From positions 1 through 38,115 of the forward strand of contig OMXQ01000016.1 of assembly GCA_900315065.1 (NCBI GenBank): 38,115 bases of DNA, in the 5' to 3' direction. The notes beneath the pieces were generated by a model. It did no database searches, had not been told where the DNA came from, and was given only the letters and a program-made list of their open reading frames with translations. The first letter of the stretch is position 1. Every line of letters begins with the position of its first letter. Shown here one piece after another: positions 210-17,350 of the stretch. Made by a program: the position numbers and the translations under genes. The DNA comes from an uncultured Erysipelotrichaceae bacterium (GTDB taxonomy: Bacteria > Bacillota_I > Bacilli_A > Erysipelotrichales > Erysipelotrichaceae).

Positions 210-2945
210 TTACATCTGAAGCAGGAAGCAGAAACAGATACTCCCAAAGTGCTCATTTTCACTTAATCTGCCGGTGCAGAATACCTCTTTGGAAGATCCG
301 TCTTTGCATTGAATGTGAAGCTCTGGATACTGGAAAGAACTGTCATCCTGCAAATAAGAATCTATTGTGTTACAGCTTGCAGCATCCACAAATGCAGTAA
401 AACTTGCAGAAGTCTGAAGCATGTCATTGATGGAATCATAACCGAACAATTCTGCACACAGCTGATTCAGGAAAAGAATCTTCCTCTGAGCATCTGCTTT
501 GTATATAAGCATTGCAGCTGGTGAGGATTCAGAAAGATTCTTGGCGTTGAAACCAAGAGAATAACGGAAATCATAATCCATATCCGGAGCATATTTCCAG
601 AACTTTTCCTTGGCAATCATCTTTGCATGATACAAGGCTGTATCTGCCATCCTGGTAAGAGCTGAAAGATCCTTTGTCTGATCCGGATAAGATGAAAATC
701 CTGCGGAAAGCGTATAAGTATATAGTACATTTTCAAAATTAAAAGAATGCACACCATTGAAGAAATCATACGCTTTCTTCATCCATACCTTAGACGGGTT
801 GGCAATTATTAATGTAAATTCATCACTGCCGCTGCGGCAAAGCAGATCCCCTGCCGGCACGAATTGCCGAAAATCATCCGCAAGTGCAATTAATAACTGG
901 TCGCCGATGTGATGACCATAAATATCGTTGAATAATTTGAAATCATTTATATCAACGTCAATCAGAATCAGTGATGAATGGTTATCCAGAAAAACCTGAG
1001 CATCCTGATCAAATCCCCTTCTGTTCATCAGACGCGTCAGATTATCTTCACGGGAATCATGACGCAGAACATCATTATTTTTCAGAAGGTTGTCGTTATC
1101 TTTCTGCAGCCCCTGGCTATATTGCATAAGAGATGCATTGCTGGCACGTAAGGAATCATTGTTACGCTTCTGCTCATCATAGTCAGACTGAAGAGAATCT
1201 CTGGATTTCTGCAATTCATCATTTCGATTCTGCAGATTTGTATTGCTCGCTTTCAGAGAATCATTATCTGCCTGAAGTGAATCGTTGTGTTCCTTCAAAG
1301 ATGCATTATCCTTTTCAAGACCTGCATTATTCTCAGTCAATACAGCATTGTCAGCTCTCAAGCTGTCATTATTTGTACGCAGATTCGTATTGCTCAATTT
1401 CAGATTATCATTATCAGATTGCAATGAATCATTATGTTCTCTGAGGGATGCATTATCTTCAATCAGAAAAGTATTGCTGGCACGTAAAGTATCGTTGCTG
1501 CGTACCTGCTCATCATAATCAGACTGCAGAGAAGTATTGTGCTTTTCAAGTTCATCGTTTCTTGACTGCAGATTGGTATTCATTGACTTCAGAAAATTGT
1601 TATCTGCTTCCAGAAAATCGTTGTGTTCCTTCAAGGAAGCATTGTCTTTCTGCAGACCTTCGTTGCTTTCAATCAGGGAAGCATTGCTTGCACGAAGCGT
1701 ATCATTGCTGCGCTTCTGTTCATCATAATCAGACTGCAGTGCAGAGTTGCTCTTTTCAAGCTCATCATTTCTTGCCTGAAGGCCTGTGTTATTGGCTTTC
1801 AGAGAATCATTGTAAGTCTGCAGGAAATCGTTATGTTCTTTCAGAGATGCATTATCTTTCTGCAGACCTTCATTGCTTTCGATCAAGGATGCATTGCTTG
1901 CACGAAGCGTAACATTGCTGCGCTTCTGCTCATCGTAGTCAGATTGCAGTGTACTATTATTCTTTTCAAGTTCTGCATTTCTGCTCTGAAGACTGGAATT
2001 ACTTGCCTTCAGAGAGTCATTGAACGTCTGCAGGAAATCATTATTTTCTTTCAGAGAAGCATTATCTTTCTGCAATCCCTGATTACTTTCAAGCAGAGAT
2101 GCATTGCTTGCACGCAAAGTATCATTACTGCGCACCTGCTCATCATAGTCTGACTGAAGAGAGTTCTTCGATTTCTGCAATTCATCATTACTCTGCCGGA
2201 GCGCATCATTGTCAGACTGAAGACTTGTATTGTGTTCTTTTAAAGATGCGTTATCTTTCTGAAGTCCTGCATTGCTGGCTCTTAATGTATCATTATTACG
2301 TCTTCTCAGATCATTCTCTGCCTGAAGATCTGTATTATTCTTTTCAAGTTCTGCATTTCTGGTCTGAAGATTGGTGTTGCTGACTTTAAGCGCGTCATTA
2401 TCAGATTGCAGACTTGTATTGTGTTCTTTTAAAGAAGCATTATCTGCACGCAATGTATCGTTATTGCGCTTACGCAGATCATTTTCTGCCCGCAGTGAAT
2501 CATTATTTTCCTTTAAAGAAGTATTGTCCTTCTGTAATCCTTCATTACTTTCAAGCAGAGATGCATTGCTTGCACGAAGCGTATCGTTGCTGCGTCTTTG
2601 TTCATCATAATCCGTCTGCAGTGTATCCCTGGATTTCTGCAGCAGATCAAAATCTGATTGCAAAGAAGCATTATTCTTGCGAAGAGCGTCATTTTCTTTC
2701 TGCAGACCGTCTTTCATTGCATTGGCAATATTATGCAGGAATTCTGCATTGATCTGGGAAGGATGCCCGAAAACTACAGCATCTGCATCTTTCATCAGTT
2801 CGTCTGTATGTTGTAATAATTCCGATTGTTTACTGCCGTTCAGAGAAAGGATGTCTATGATATATCTGCCATTTTCAAAAACCCTTCTGCGTTCCTGCAG
2901 CTTACTGCCTGATCCTTCCGTATTTTCAATCATCAGGATTTTCAT
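210..2945 (-). CDS. Giant-coiled-coil GGDEF protein with C-terminal PAS-like domain
   Basis: The order is an N-terminal alpha/beta segment (about 80 residues, perhaps a degenerate receiver-like fold), a coiled coil of 78 perfect heptads (residues 88-633 counted from the upstream in-frame ATG at 2954), a GGDEF domain (about 634-790) and a PAS-like C-terminus (about 805-914). In the GGDEF domain the metal-binding region (DVDINDF) and GHHIGD are present, but the signature reads GSDEF (709-713). Diguanylate cyclase activity is therefore plausible, not certain. No signal peptide or membrane segment is visible, so a cytosolic protein is likely. In the coiled coil 67 of 78 heptads begin with Asn and 70 of 78 have Leu at position 4. 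The start is placed at 2945 because GAGAGG lies about 9 nt before that ATG but touches the ATG at 2954. It is a single-gene unit with its own terminator. Confidence 0.85.
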   Translation of the reverse strand: MKILMIENTEGSGSKLQERRRVFENGRYIIDILSLNGSKQSELLQHTDELMKDADAVVFGHPSQINAEFLHNIANAMKDGLQKENDALRKNNASLQSDFDLLQKSRDTLQTDYDEQRRSNDTLRASNASLLESNEGLQKDNTSLKENNDSLRAENDLRKRNNDTLRADNASLKEHNTSLQSDNDALKVSNTNLQTRNAELEKNNTDLQAENDLRRRNNDTLRASNAGLQKDNASLKEHNTSLQSDNDALRQSNDELQKSKNSLQSDYDEQVRSNDTLRASNASLLESNQGLQKDNASLKENNDFLQTFNDSLKASNSSLQSRNAELEKNNSTLQSDYDEQKRSNVTLRASNASLIESNEGLQKDNASLKEHNDFLQTYNDSLKANNTGLQARNDELEKSNSALQSDYDEQKRSNDTLRASNASLIESNEGLQKDNASLKEHNDFLEADNNFLKSMNTNLQSRNDELEKHNTSLQSDYDEQVRSNDTLRASNTFLIEDNASLREHNDSLQSDNDNLKLSNTNLRTNNDSLRADNAVLTENNAGLEKDNASLKEHNDSLQADNDSLKASNTNLQNRNDELQKSRDSLQSDYDEQKRNNDSLRASNASLMQYSQGLQKDNDNLLKNNDVLRHDSREDNLTRLMNRRGFDQDAQVFLDNHSSLILIDVDINDFKLFNDIYGHHIGDQLLIALADDFRQFVPAGDLLCRSGSDEFTLIIANPSKVWMKKAYDFFNGVHSFNFENVLYTYTLSAGFSSYPDQTKDLSALTRMADTALYHAKMIAKEKFWKYAPDMDYDFRYSLGFNAKNLSESSPAAMLIYKADAQRKILFLNQLCAELFGYDSINDMLQTSASFTAFVDAASCNTIDSYLQDDSSFQYPELHIQCKDGSSKEVFCTGRLSENEHFGSICFCFLLQM
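1056..2693 (-). repeat. 21-bp heptad repeat array with 210-bp higher-order units
   Basis: This is the stretch encoding the 78 heptads of the GGDEF protein. A marker heptad beginning Tyr-Asp-Glu-Gln recurs, with its conserved DNA motif at about 1171, 1507, 1717, 1927, 2137 and 2599. The spacings are 336, 210, 210, 210 and 462 bp, all exact multiples of 21. The three 210-bp units (about 1507-2136) are the most alike and look like recent tandem duplications. Confidence 0.9.
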
Positions 2946-13435: not shown

Positions 13436-14399
13436 CTTTGTTCAATCCTTCGGAAATACTATACAGATAGGAATCGAGATCAAACGGACGCAGATCGCCC
13501 GGCTGCTCGCCAAGACCTATGTAATAAACCGGCAAATGCAGCTTGTGCTTGATGGCAAGGACAATGCCGCCTTTGGCGGTGCCGTCCATCTTGGTCAGAA
13601 TAATTCCTGTCAGGGTTGTGCTTTCATTGAATACCTGTGCCTGGGAAAGACCGTTCTGTCCCGTTGTAGCATCCAGTACAAGCCATGTGTTATGCGGTGC
13701 ATTTTCAATTTCTCTGGCTGTGACTCTGTTCATCTTTGCCAGCTCATTCATCAGATTTGTCTTGTTCTGCAGTCTGCCTGCAGTATCACAAATTAATATA
13801 TCAGTCTGATGCTCTTTTGCATACCGGCACCCGTCTACAATTGCTGCACTCGGGTCACCGTTTTCTCTGCCTTTGACAGTAGGAATCTGCAGTCTCTCGC
13901 CCCATTCAGCCAGCTGCTCAATCGCACCAGCTCTGAAGGTGTCTGCTGCTGTAAAAGCAACGCTCTTCCCTTCCTGCTGGTACATACTTGCAAGCTTTGC
14001 GGCAGTCGTTGTCTTGCCGGAACCATTCACACCTTCTAAGAAGATGACAGTAGGTCCGTTTTCATTGAAGACAATCGGCGCATCCGGATATTCTTCATAG
14101 ATTTCCTTCATGATTTCGATCAGCAGGTTCATGGCCCACTTGAAAGAAATCGTCGGATAGTCCTTTCCTCTTTCTTTCAGCTTGTCACAGATCAGATCAG
14201 CAGTTTCAATACCGACATCGCTTTCCAGAAGAATTATTGTCAGCTCTTCCAGAAAATGATCGGAAATACCGTCAAAATCTTTTTCTAATGTACTCAGACG
14301 TTGGCCGAACTGCTGTCTGCTTTTTGCAAAACCGGACAGATACTGGGCCTTGTCTTTTTTACCGGAAAAAGCTTCTTTCAATTTATCAAGAAAACTCAT
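13425..14399 (-). CDS. ftsY: Signal recognition particle receptor FtsY
   Basis: This 324-residue SRP receptor GTPase docks SRP-ribosome complexes at the membrane. The NG domain is complete, with GVNGSGKT (P-loop, 123-130), DTAGR and TKMDGTAKGG. The acidic A domain is very short (the first ~25 residues, largely basic), as in many Firmicutes. The ATG overlaps the smc stop codon by 4 nt. Confidence 0.97.
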   Translation of the reverse strand: MSFLDKLKEAFSGKKDKAQYLSGFAKSRQQFGQRLSTLEKDFDGISDHFLEELTIILLESDVGIETADLICDKLKERGKDYPTISFKWAMNLLIEIMKEIYEEYPDAPIVFNENGPTVIFLEGVNGSGKTTTAAKLASMYQQEGKSVAFTAADTFRAGAIEQLAEWGERLQIPTVKGRENGDPSAAIVDGCRYAKEHQTDILICDTAGRLQNKTNLMNELAKMNRVTAREIENAPHNTWLVLDATTGQNGLSQAQVFNESTTLTGIILTKMDGTAKGGIVLAIKHKLHLPVYYIGLGEQPGDLRPFDLDSYLYSISEGLNKDGE

Positions 14400-17350
14400 G
14401 CGCTTACCTCCGCTCCTGTTTTCTCAGCCATCTGCACAGCATCGCTCAATTCAACCTTGAGCATCTGGGAAACACCCTGATGCTGCATAGTAACGCCATA
14501 TAAGACATCTGCCTTTTCCATGGTTCCCTGACGATGGGTAACGACAAGGAACTGGGTTCTGTCTGTATAGCGGTGCAGATACTCCGCAAAACGCTCAACA
14601 TTGCCCGGATCCAGAGCAGCTTCCACTTCATCAAGAATGACTAACGGAACCGGCTTGACTTTCAGAATAGCAAACAATACACACAAGGCAATCAATGATT
14701 TCTCACCGCCGGAAAACAACATGTTGTTCTGCACTGCTTTCCCCGGAGGCTGGGCATCGATATCAATACCTGTGTTCAACAGGTCAGAAGGATCCTGCAG
14801 AATAAGGCGAGCCTTGCCGCCGCCATATAAAGAACGGAAGATTTCATCAAATTCATGATTGATCTTATCAAACATTTCCTTGAACTGCTTCTTCATGATC
14901 GTATCCATCTCATCGATGGCAGCTAAGATCTTGTCTCTGCTCAAAGTCAGTTCTTCAATCTGCTTCTTCAGCTTTTCATAGCGTTCATTGACAGCGGAAT
15001 ATTCTTCCGGTGCATTCATATTGATATTGCCTAAGTGTTCGATATCAGCCCGCAGCTGGGCAACTTCTTCTTTGGCATTATCCACCGGCTGACTGGCTGC
15101 TTTGGTTTTTGCAAATTCAAAGGTCAGCTGATACTCAGACGCAAGTCTGGATAAATCTGCTTCCATCTTTGTTTCCAGCTTTGTCTTGTCAATCTGGATA
15201 GCCTGGGCACTTGCTTCTGCAGTTCTCAGATCCTTGCGGACCTGACGCAGCTGGGCATCTTTGCGGTCAGCATCTGCCGAAAGGCTTTGTCTTTCTTCCC
15301 GCTTGTTTTTAATCTGATTGGTGATTTCATCACGCTGGGAATAGGCTGTATTCAATCTGATGACAAGATCATCACTATGTGCCTGGGAAGAGGTTCCATC
15401 TTCTTCCCGGCTCCCCTCAGGGTGCAGCAAAGCCAGATCATTTTTCAGTTTGTCATACTTTGCTTTCTTGGCATCAACAACCGGCTCCAGGGAAGCTCTT
15501 GCGACTCTTGTATCCTGAGCGCCTCTGGAAGCTTCATCTTTTTCTGCATAAGCCTTGTTTTTTGCCTTCTGAGCAATTTCAAGAGAAGCCTTTGCAGAAT
15601 CCAGCTGGCCGAGAATTTCATCGTATTCTTTCTTCATTGTCACCAGATTGGTATTGTGCTTTGTTTTGCCGCCGGTCATGGAACCGCCGCGATGAATCAC
15701 TTCACCATCCAATGTAACAATCTTATACATGCGCTTAGTCAAAGCAGAAAGCTGGTTGCCGGCTTCCATATTTTCCGCCACCATGACATTATTCAGCAAT
15801 GACATGACAACCGGATCAAACCTGCGGTCATTGGACACAAAAGAACTGGCAACGCCAAGATATCCTTTTGTATTCTGGGCAATGATTTCATTTTCTTTGG
15901 AAATATAATGAGGCTGGCACACATTCAGCGGCAGGAAAGTAGCTCTGCCGCCTAAGTTTCTGTTCAGAAAACGGATAGCATCCCGGGCTGCCTGTTCATC
16001 AACGGTGACAATATTATTCATAGCTCCGCCCAAAGCAGTGGATATAGCTTCTTCATAGCCGCTTTCAACGGTCAATACCTGGCCGATTACACCAAGAACC
16101 CCGTGCAGATCCCGCTGATGATCCATAATGGAACGGACGCCCTGCTGGTTATTAAATGGATTCTTCATCAAAGACTCAATAACATTTTTACGATTTTCTA
16201 GTCTTCTTACCAGATTGTCTGCCTGATCATAAGAAGAAGAGGCATCGACAATGTGCTGGGCAGCCAGATTCAGCTTTTCCGTATACAGATTCAGAGAGGT
16301 CTGCAGATCATCAAGACGCTTCTTACGATCCTCATATTCGATCTTTGCGGCATCCAGAAGCTCGCTGAGTTCTTTGATTCTTTCTTCATCTGAACCGGTT
16401 TCTACAATATACTTGCGCTTTTCATCCAGCTCGGTTTTTCTCTGTTCAAGTGCCTGGACATCTGCATAATTGCGCATCAGTCTGTCCTGCAGATCATTAA
16501 TCTCACGATCCAGCTGGGAAACCTGTTTCTTTTCTTCTGTGATCTTTGTATCAAGGACCTGGATATTGGTATTGTACATTGTTGTCTTTGTTTCAATATC
16601 AAAAAGAGTCTTTTTCGCAGATTCAATATCTGCATCAATGGACTCAATATCCTGGACCAGAACTGTAATTTCAATTTCTTCCAGTCTCTTTTTCTTTTCC
16701 CGATAGATTTCAGCCTTATGTGCCTGTCTCTTCAAAGGGGAAACCTGCTTTTCCAGCTCATTGAGAATATCCGTGGAACGATCCAGATTTTCCTTTGTTC
16801 TTTCAAGCCTGGACAAAGACTCGATCTTTCTCTTTTTATACTTGGCAACCCCGGCTGCTTCCTCAAAGATGCCTCTTCTTTCCAGCGGCTTGGCTTCTGC
16901 AAAGGAAACAACATTGCCCTGGGAGATAATACTCAGCGAATCTTTGCCAAGACCCGTATCCAGAAAAAGATCAACGACATCACGCAGACGCACCTGGCGG
17001 CGGTTGATCAGATATTCCGCATCTCCCCCCTCACGATAAAGACGTCTGGTTACTTCGATTTCTTCCTGGTCAGAATTCAGAACATGACTGGTATTATCAA
17101 AAACCAGTGTCACTTCTGCCATATTGACTTTGCGTCTGTCGGCAGAACCGGCAAAGATGACATCGTCCATTCTCTGCCCGCGCATACTCTTGGCACTCTG
17201 TTCGCCAAGCACCCATCTGACTGCATCTGATATATTGGATTTCCCGCATCCGTTCGGTCCGACAATGCCGGTAATCGGATGATCAAAGGAAATAATTGTT
17301 TTGTCTGCGAAGGACTTGAACCCCTGCATTTCAATTCGTTTTAAGAACAT
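14396..17350 (-). CDS. smc: Chromosome segregation protein SMC (short-armed)
   Basis: This 984-residue SMC condensin ATPase has Walker A GPNGCGKSN (31-39), a Q-loop region near ISQGNV, an N-arm coiled coil (about 165-400), a hinge (about 405-560) ending in GGSMTGG, a C-arm (about 565-800), the ABC signature LFSGGEKS and Walker B VILDEVEAALD. All catalytic elements are intact. The protein is roughly 200 residues shorter than the ~1186-residue Bacillus homologue, with the loss in the coiled arms, similar to Mollicutes proteins. GAGG precedes the ATG. It heads smc-ftsY-ylxM-ackA. ScpA and ScpB are not in the window. Confidence 0.97.
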   Translation of the reverse strand: MFLKRIEMQGFKSFADKTIISFDHPITGIVGPNGCGKSNISDAVRWVLGEQSAKSMRGQRMDDVIFAGSADRRKVNMAEVTLVFDNTSHVLNSDQEEIEVTRRLYREGGDAEYLINRRQVRLRDVVDLFLDTGLGKDSLSIISQGNVVSFAEAKPLERRGIFEEAAGVAKYKKRKIESLSRLERTKENLDRSTDILNELEKQVSPLKRQAHKAEIYREKKKRLEEIEITVLVQDIESIDADIESAKKTLFDIETKTTMYNTNIQVLDTKITEEKKQVSQLDREINDLQDRLMRNYADVQALEQRKTELDEKRKYIVETGSDEERIKELSELLDAAKIEYEDRKKRLDDLQTSLNLYTEKLNLAAQHIVDASSSYDQADNLVRRLENRKNVIESLMKNPFNNQQGVRSIMDHQRDLHGVLGVIGQVLTVESGYEEAISTALGGAMNNIVTVDEQAARDAIRFLNRNLGGRATFLPLNVCQPHYISKENEIIAQNTKGYLGVASSFVSNDRRFDPVVMSLLNNVMVAENMEAGNQLSALTKRMYKIVTLDGEVIHRGGSMTGGKTKHNTNLVTMKKEYDEILGQLDSAKASLEIAQKAKNKAYAEKDEASRGAQDTRVARASLEPVVDAKKAKYDKLKNDLALLHPEGSREEDGTSSQAHSDDLVIRLNTAYSQRDEITNQIKNKREERQSLSADADRKDAQLRQVRKDLRTAEASAQAIQIDKTKLETKMEADLSRLASEYQLTFEFAKTKAASQPVDNAKEEVAQLRADIEHLGNINMNAPEEYSAVNERYEKLKKQIEELTLSRDKILAAIDEMDTIMKKQFKEMFDKINHEFDEIFRSLYGGGKARLILQDPSDLLNTGIDIDAQPPGKAVQNNMLFSGGEKSLIALCVLFAILKVKPVPLVILDEVEAALDPGNVERFAEYLHRYTDRTQFLVVTHRQGTMEKADVLYGVTMQHQGVSQMLKVELSDAVQMAEKTGAEVSA

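Follow-up and report, generated by a model that had tools for sequence, protein, structure and literature searches.

What kind of protein carries 78 heptads with asparagine and leucine in their core positions ahead of a GGDEF domain? The question is raised by a gene close to one end of the window, the stretch of 38,115 nucleotides analysed here, which is a contig from an uncultured Erysipelotrichaceae bacterium and part of a 2.5-Mb genome assembly. The preliminary description of this DNA had reported 78 heptads without a skip over 546 residues, with Asn in one core position of 67 and Leu in the other of 70. Recounting residues 88-633 gave exactly these figures, the Asn standing first and the Leu fourth in the heptad. 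Heptads that depart from the pattern themselves recur, either as YDEQxxS or with K or R at position a. When the 546 residues were shuffled (2000 trials), a single register held at most 25 Asn (mean 17); the Asn register of the array is not due to chance. The dominant hydropathy period is 7.0 residues, and the array contains no Pro, Cys or Trp, only eight Gly, and 16% Asn. An SMC-like protein encoded in the same window (14399-17350, minus strand), which served as a control from the same genome, has a long coil without the Asn/Leu register, and a search of the genome for a paralogous Asn/Leu coil found none.

The array is one of several parts of the protein (Table 1), and the preliminary description had omitted two of them, the C-terminal PAS domain, whose profile score lies barely above the cut-off, and the N-terminal domain of about 80 residues. 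As read from the sequence, a second ATG at 2943-2945 is probably the better start of the open reading frame, with a GAGAGG at 2955-2960, 9 nt upstream. The N-terminal 80 residues matched nothing in Pfam (including recognisable input domains such as Rec, PHY or LOV) or among PDB sequences; their single-sequence AlphaFold model (pLDDT 67, low confidence) gave no Foldseek match at E 0.001, and nothing convincing was found for this domain in the family genomes and in the genome of the closest relative, G045. No operon partner is known for the gene, because its neighbours are unrelated (DUF218, fucosidase, rhamnosidase) and it adjoins the contig edge.

Table 1. Parts of the coil protein gene in the window, and loci of the CheB/CheR-PAS type discussed in the text.
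Feature	Position	Strand	Basis
Whole ORF, 914 aa	210..2954	minus	
N-terminal domain, ~80 aa, alpha/beta-looking	2706..2945	minus	low-confidence AlphaFold model
78 Asn/Leu heptads, residues 88-633, predicted parallel coiled coil, ~81 nm	1056..2693	minus	
210-bp tandem super-repeat (70 residues, 10 heptads), clearest part, 3.3 copies, 79% match	1458..2156	minus	Tandem Repeats Finder, 70-aa autocorrelation
DxLT motif (DNLT, residues 637-640), start of GGDEF domain	1035..1046	minus	
GGDEF domain, PF00990	618..1046	minus	98.3 bits vs curated cut-off 23.8
Signature loop GSDEF in place of GGDEF, residues 709-713	816..830	minus	
PAS domain at the C-terminus, PAS_8 match over residues 807-847, distal boundary approximate	240..536	minus	profile
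CheB/CheR-PAS-type loci	L021, L025, L026, L027, L041, L042, L049, L081, L083, L107		

The cyclase that had been placed at the end of the rod stands as a GGDEF domain (PF00990, 98 bits) but not as a clear cyclase, its signature being GSDEF. The metal-site Asp is kept, as are the motifs FKxxND and GHxxGD, and DVDINDFKLFNDIYGHHIGDQLL aligns with solved GGDEF domains. The GG[D/E]EF signature is present in the relative from G045 (RYGGDEF), and neither copy has the RxxD of an I-site five residues ahead of the signature; PAGD stands there in the window copy and PEGD in G045. The GSDEF change may leave the window copy inactive; judged by these motifs, its diguanylate cyclase activity is uncertain and that of the G045 relative likelier. 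The same signature (RYGSDEF) occurs in a second GGDEF protein of the window genome (G000:C117:6459-6923, locus L005). It is the only GSDEF protein in a sample of 60 further GGDEF proteins of the order. The closest paralogues, which come from the window genome, from G045 and from a further genus (G000:C26, G045:C402 and G168:C39), consist of a CHASE-type sensor, a membrane helix, GGDEF and PAS. Their GGDEF-PAS half is 30-40% identical to that of the coil protein, whereas they have an extracytoplasmic sensor and a transmembrane helix where the latter has the coil; their NGGDEF signature is intact, unlike the GSDEF of the window copy.

The array runs into the GGDEF domain in a defined phase. Counted from Asp 637 of DxLT, Leu stands at -7 and -14, Asn at -10 and -17 and Ser at -3, and the G045 relative has the identical frame, with Leu at -7 and -14. 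Both species have the hydrophobic residue at -7 by which stalks of the DgcR/PadC type are recognised, a phase match that alone has a 1-in-7 probability of arising by chance, the two species not being independent. As to a second usable register of the slippery axxdexx kind, the alternative core position across the 78 heptads is S in 25, D in 23, N in 12 and H in 7, and the penultimate heptad has a double Asn (626, 627). In DgcR, WspR and PadC, the frame made up of -3 and every seventh residue upstream, plus -7, is that of the activated register, and cyclase linkers vary in length by sevens, forming length groups 1-6 (PMC8041772). Phytochrome cyclases have a few conserved Asn in this register; those at a positions of the stimulating register of PadC (N512/N519) are highly conserved, and a PadC variant that also has two such Asn replaced by Val is constitutively active and light-insensitive (PMC6005682), while LadC requires a stabilised stimulating register for activity (PMC12805367). 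Like the stalks of these four proteins, the array would be a parallel heptad stalk in phase with DxLT and with Leu at -7, and, as in PadC, it has conserved Asn at the a positions of the stimulating register. It differs from them in that their stalks are short and vary by a few heptads, whereas the coil protein has 78, nearly all with Asn; its PAS domain follows the GGDEF domain instead of preceding it, and its signature is GSDEF. In the sample of 60 GGDEF proteins from the order, the residue at -7 is hydrophobic in 49 and Asn occurs at -10 in six, each time with Leu at -7, and a run of such stalk Asn is absent. An Asn at -10 as a general rule of GGDEF stalks was rejected for the order on this count (6/60). 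Since the N-10/L-7 combination is found in a minority of these proteins, the array would be the stalk heptad of that minority, multiplied.

One close relative was identified among 70 genomes of the genus. It belongs to another species (G045:C34) and is about 60% identical across GGDEF-PAS. Its contig starts inside the coil and the N-terminus is missing, so that its count of at least 73 heptads in register is a lower bound; 60 of these have Asn and 73/73 have Leu, and there is no Pro. A homologue without conserved register, which the preliminary description had named as evidence against its reading, was looked for here and did not turn up, the relative having kept the register. Between the two species, codons at the Asn position differ by about 17-18 synonymous and 6-7 amino-acid changes and those at the Leu position by 38 and 7, against 74 and 153 at the other five heptad positions together (Fisher p versus the other positions 0.0003 for a and 1e-10 for d). 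Swaps between AAT and AAC are frequent, with Asn itself retained. The codon comparison indicates that the Asn/Leu core is under purifying selection, which, together with the register kept in G045, rules out the reading of the region as low complexity without register. In its contig (locus L010:2442-3900) the relative is followed by an ORF that by eye resembles uracil-DNA glycosylase, and this by a PAS-GGDEF-like protein; these neighbours differ from those in the window.

The long array is rare, being found in 2/70 genus members examined and in 2/272 family genomes. A pattern of six perfect heptads matched two further genomes of the 272 in the family, in short and apparently unrelated stretches, and one of seven perfect heptads gave scattered short cases only in a phylum sample of 392 genomes. 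Searches with the whole protein retrieved no relative from the genome_contigs collection, and from phage records only matches confined to the GGDEF end. A scan of genome_contigs for eight perfect Asn/Leu heptads returned at least 118 stretches; those listed are mostly minisatellites or frames with stops, the remainder being short coils, and a scan of viral contigs gave the same kinds of match. Minisatellites with a 21-bp period translate as Asn/Leu heptads (NYELRIT, NCQLPTT), often with stops (L039, L080, L029, L018, L097 and others); Nostoc and Bacteroidota are rich in them, and they confound scans for heptad patterns. Among the listed coding matches, those with recognisable domains are CheB/CheR-PAS proteins and a DUF3084 protein, and the few others are coils without a known family. 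The earlier view of near-constant core Asn as very unusual thus holds in general, but these precedents show that it is not unique.

In the CheB/CheR-PAS proteins, as in the coil protein, an Asn/Leu core extends through nearly every heptad between signalling domains. Among the matches listed, however, their NEELQSTNEELETT coils comprise 8-11 heptads, mostly 10-11, with two of 14-15, and none of the matches listed has an array near 67 Asn heptads. They also differ in their acidic N-E-E-L surface and in having a CheR methyltransferase and PAS; GGDEF is absent from the three examples scanned, and a profile search found no CheR or CheB domain in the coil protein. The NEELQSTNEELETT heptads are near-identical across phyla (Sulfurimonas, cyanobacteria, Acidobacteria, Nonomuraea), and a literature search for the string NEELQSTNEELETT found no paper. 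Profile similarity links the coil region to ZapB, bZIP and homeobox leucine-zipper coils, which are short and belong to division proteins or transcription factors, a likeness that is compositional and comes with no shared domain. Identity with ZapB (PF06005 match) was rejected, since only the coil matches and a protein of 914 residues with GGDEF and PAS stands against a coil-only protein of about 80 residues. Long repetitive coils with polar core Asn are also known from trimeric autotransporter stalks; these have Asn at d, are trimeric and surface-anchored, while the coil protein has Asn at a, and a profile search found no anchor or autotransporter domain in it.

We consider it somewhat better than even (probability about 0.55) that the coil protein represents a hugely expanded, register-locked GGDEF dimerisation stalk which serves as a long spacer for the GGDEF-PAS pair. 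On this view, a soluble signalling protein of GGDEF-PAS type would have exchanged the membrane sensor half of the paralogues for a small N-terminal domain and a vastly expanded dimerisation stalk. Two chains are predicted to pair through the 78 heptads in parallel and in register, as a coiled coil whose core layers alternate between Asn and Leu; this core would be the stimulating register that joins two GGDEF domains, continuous in phase with DxLT. Acting as a spacer or tether, the rod would keep two GGDEF-PAS heads paired at a distance of about 80 nm from the N-terminal domain. The length of about 80 nm proposed earlier is arithmetically sound (546 x 0.1485 = 81 nm) if the array is one continuous coiled coil. 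Should the GSDEF copy be inactive, a stimulating register would have no enzymatic meaning there.

How the array arose bears on whether its length matters. Self-correlation of the protein peaks at 70 residues (51% identity), a typical unit being YDEQKRS NVTLRAS NASLIES NEGLQKD NASLKEH NDFLQTY NDSLKAN NTGLQAR NDELEKS NSALQSD. Part of the regularity is due to tandem duplication of this unit of ten heptads, and because of the 70-residue self-similarity and the 210-bp tandem repeat the 78 heptads are not independent events. The array might therefore have been amplified neutrally by slippage or unequal recombination from the heptad of a short stalk, its length beyond that being without function. We regard this as unlikely, even if the tandem repeat with its 70-residue periodicity and the restriction of the array to 2/70 genus members examined and 2/272 family genomes would agree with it, as neither species has a frame break or a proline and the copies have diverged widely at surface and synonymous sites with Asn and Leu retained: comparison of three neighbouring units gives 22-29 base differences in changed codons and 21-25 in synonymous ones. 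At the level of the codons, divergence of this kind shows selection on the fold; it is not evidence for a selected length. Under the preferred reading of an expanded stalk, the array would have grown by duplication of the 70-residue unit and been retained through selection on its core residues. The duplicated unit could alternatively set a stagger. A self-assembling scaffold, filament or ruler, in which staggered pairing yields a polymer displaying GGDEF heads, would be favoured by the near-uniform core (Asn-Asn layers match in 50-59 of 66-77 positions at shifts of 1-12 heptads), by the super-repeat of ten heptads as a natural stagger, and by the resemblance of the coil to ZapB, a protein consisting of a coil only that forms bundles. 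Yet this resemblance reflects composition, with coils of the homeobox leucine zipper and KASH types scoring alike, and charge clearly favours zero stagger in the window protein: of the g-e' pairs in an unstaggered parallel dimer, 46 are attractive and none repulsive, compared with 8-25 attractive and 3-15 repulsive ones after shifts of 1-30 heptads. The G045 array has no charge preference for zero stagger and disfavours none, so that the charge pattern of the window array is no more than supportive of an unstaggered dimer. A ruler would be expected to have a fixed length, and that of the G045 array is bounded only from below (at least 73 heptads). Taken together, we rate assembly of this kind as improbable.

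The pairing itself may also be questioned, since helices are not readily formed by Asn, Asp, Ser and Thr. The region might instead be trimeric, partly disordered or a lone charged helix, which would be compatible with the 16% Asn of the array and with alternate registers that put S, D, N or H beside Leu. Single-sequence AlphaFold places helices at 70-492 and 502-628 with moderate to low confidence (mostly 40-73) and dips at 242-268, 347-365 and 485-505; such full-length models are unreliable for the globular ends and silent on the dimer. Against this, the mean helix propensity of 0.44 kcal/mol (Pace-Scholtz values) matches the 0.45 of the CheR-PAS coil, and Asn at a with Leu at d fits the classic parallel-dimer rule derived from GCN4; Asn at a and at d is the subject of a 2017 study by Fletcher and colleagues, cited in PMC6005682. 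Antiparallel pairing of the window array is repulsive by charge. We think it quite improbable that the array is anything other than two-stranded. Still more doubtful in our view is a cooperative long-range switch, in which a register shift starting at the N-terminal domain would travel about 80 nm along the Asn/Leu array and flip the GGDEF pair, making the rod a signal cable instead of a passive spacer.

Read as an expanded stalk, the coil protein looks like a familiar part much enlarged and not like machinery of a new kind. The stalks of cyclases serve as a model of signal transmission by coiled coils, and what their core Asn residues do is being investigated. With its 67 Asn layers in the stimulating register, this natural stalk would be an extreme test of how far a register can be held or moved, and the array may provide a long parallel rod of regular sequence for protein design. 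If its length is functional, the question for the biology of this bacterium becomes why a GGDEF pair and another domain should be kept 80 nm apart.
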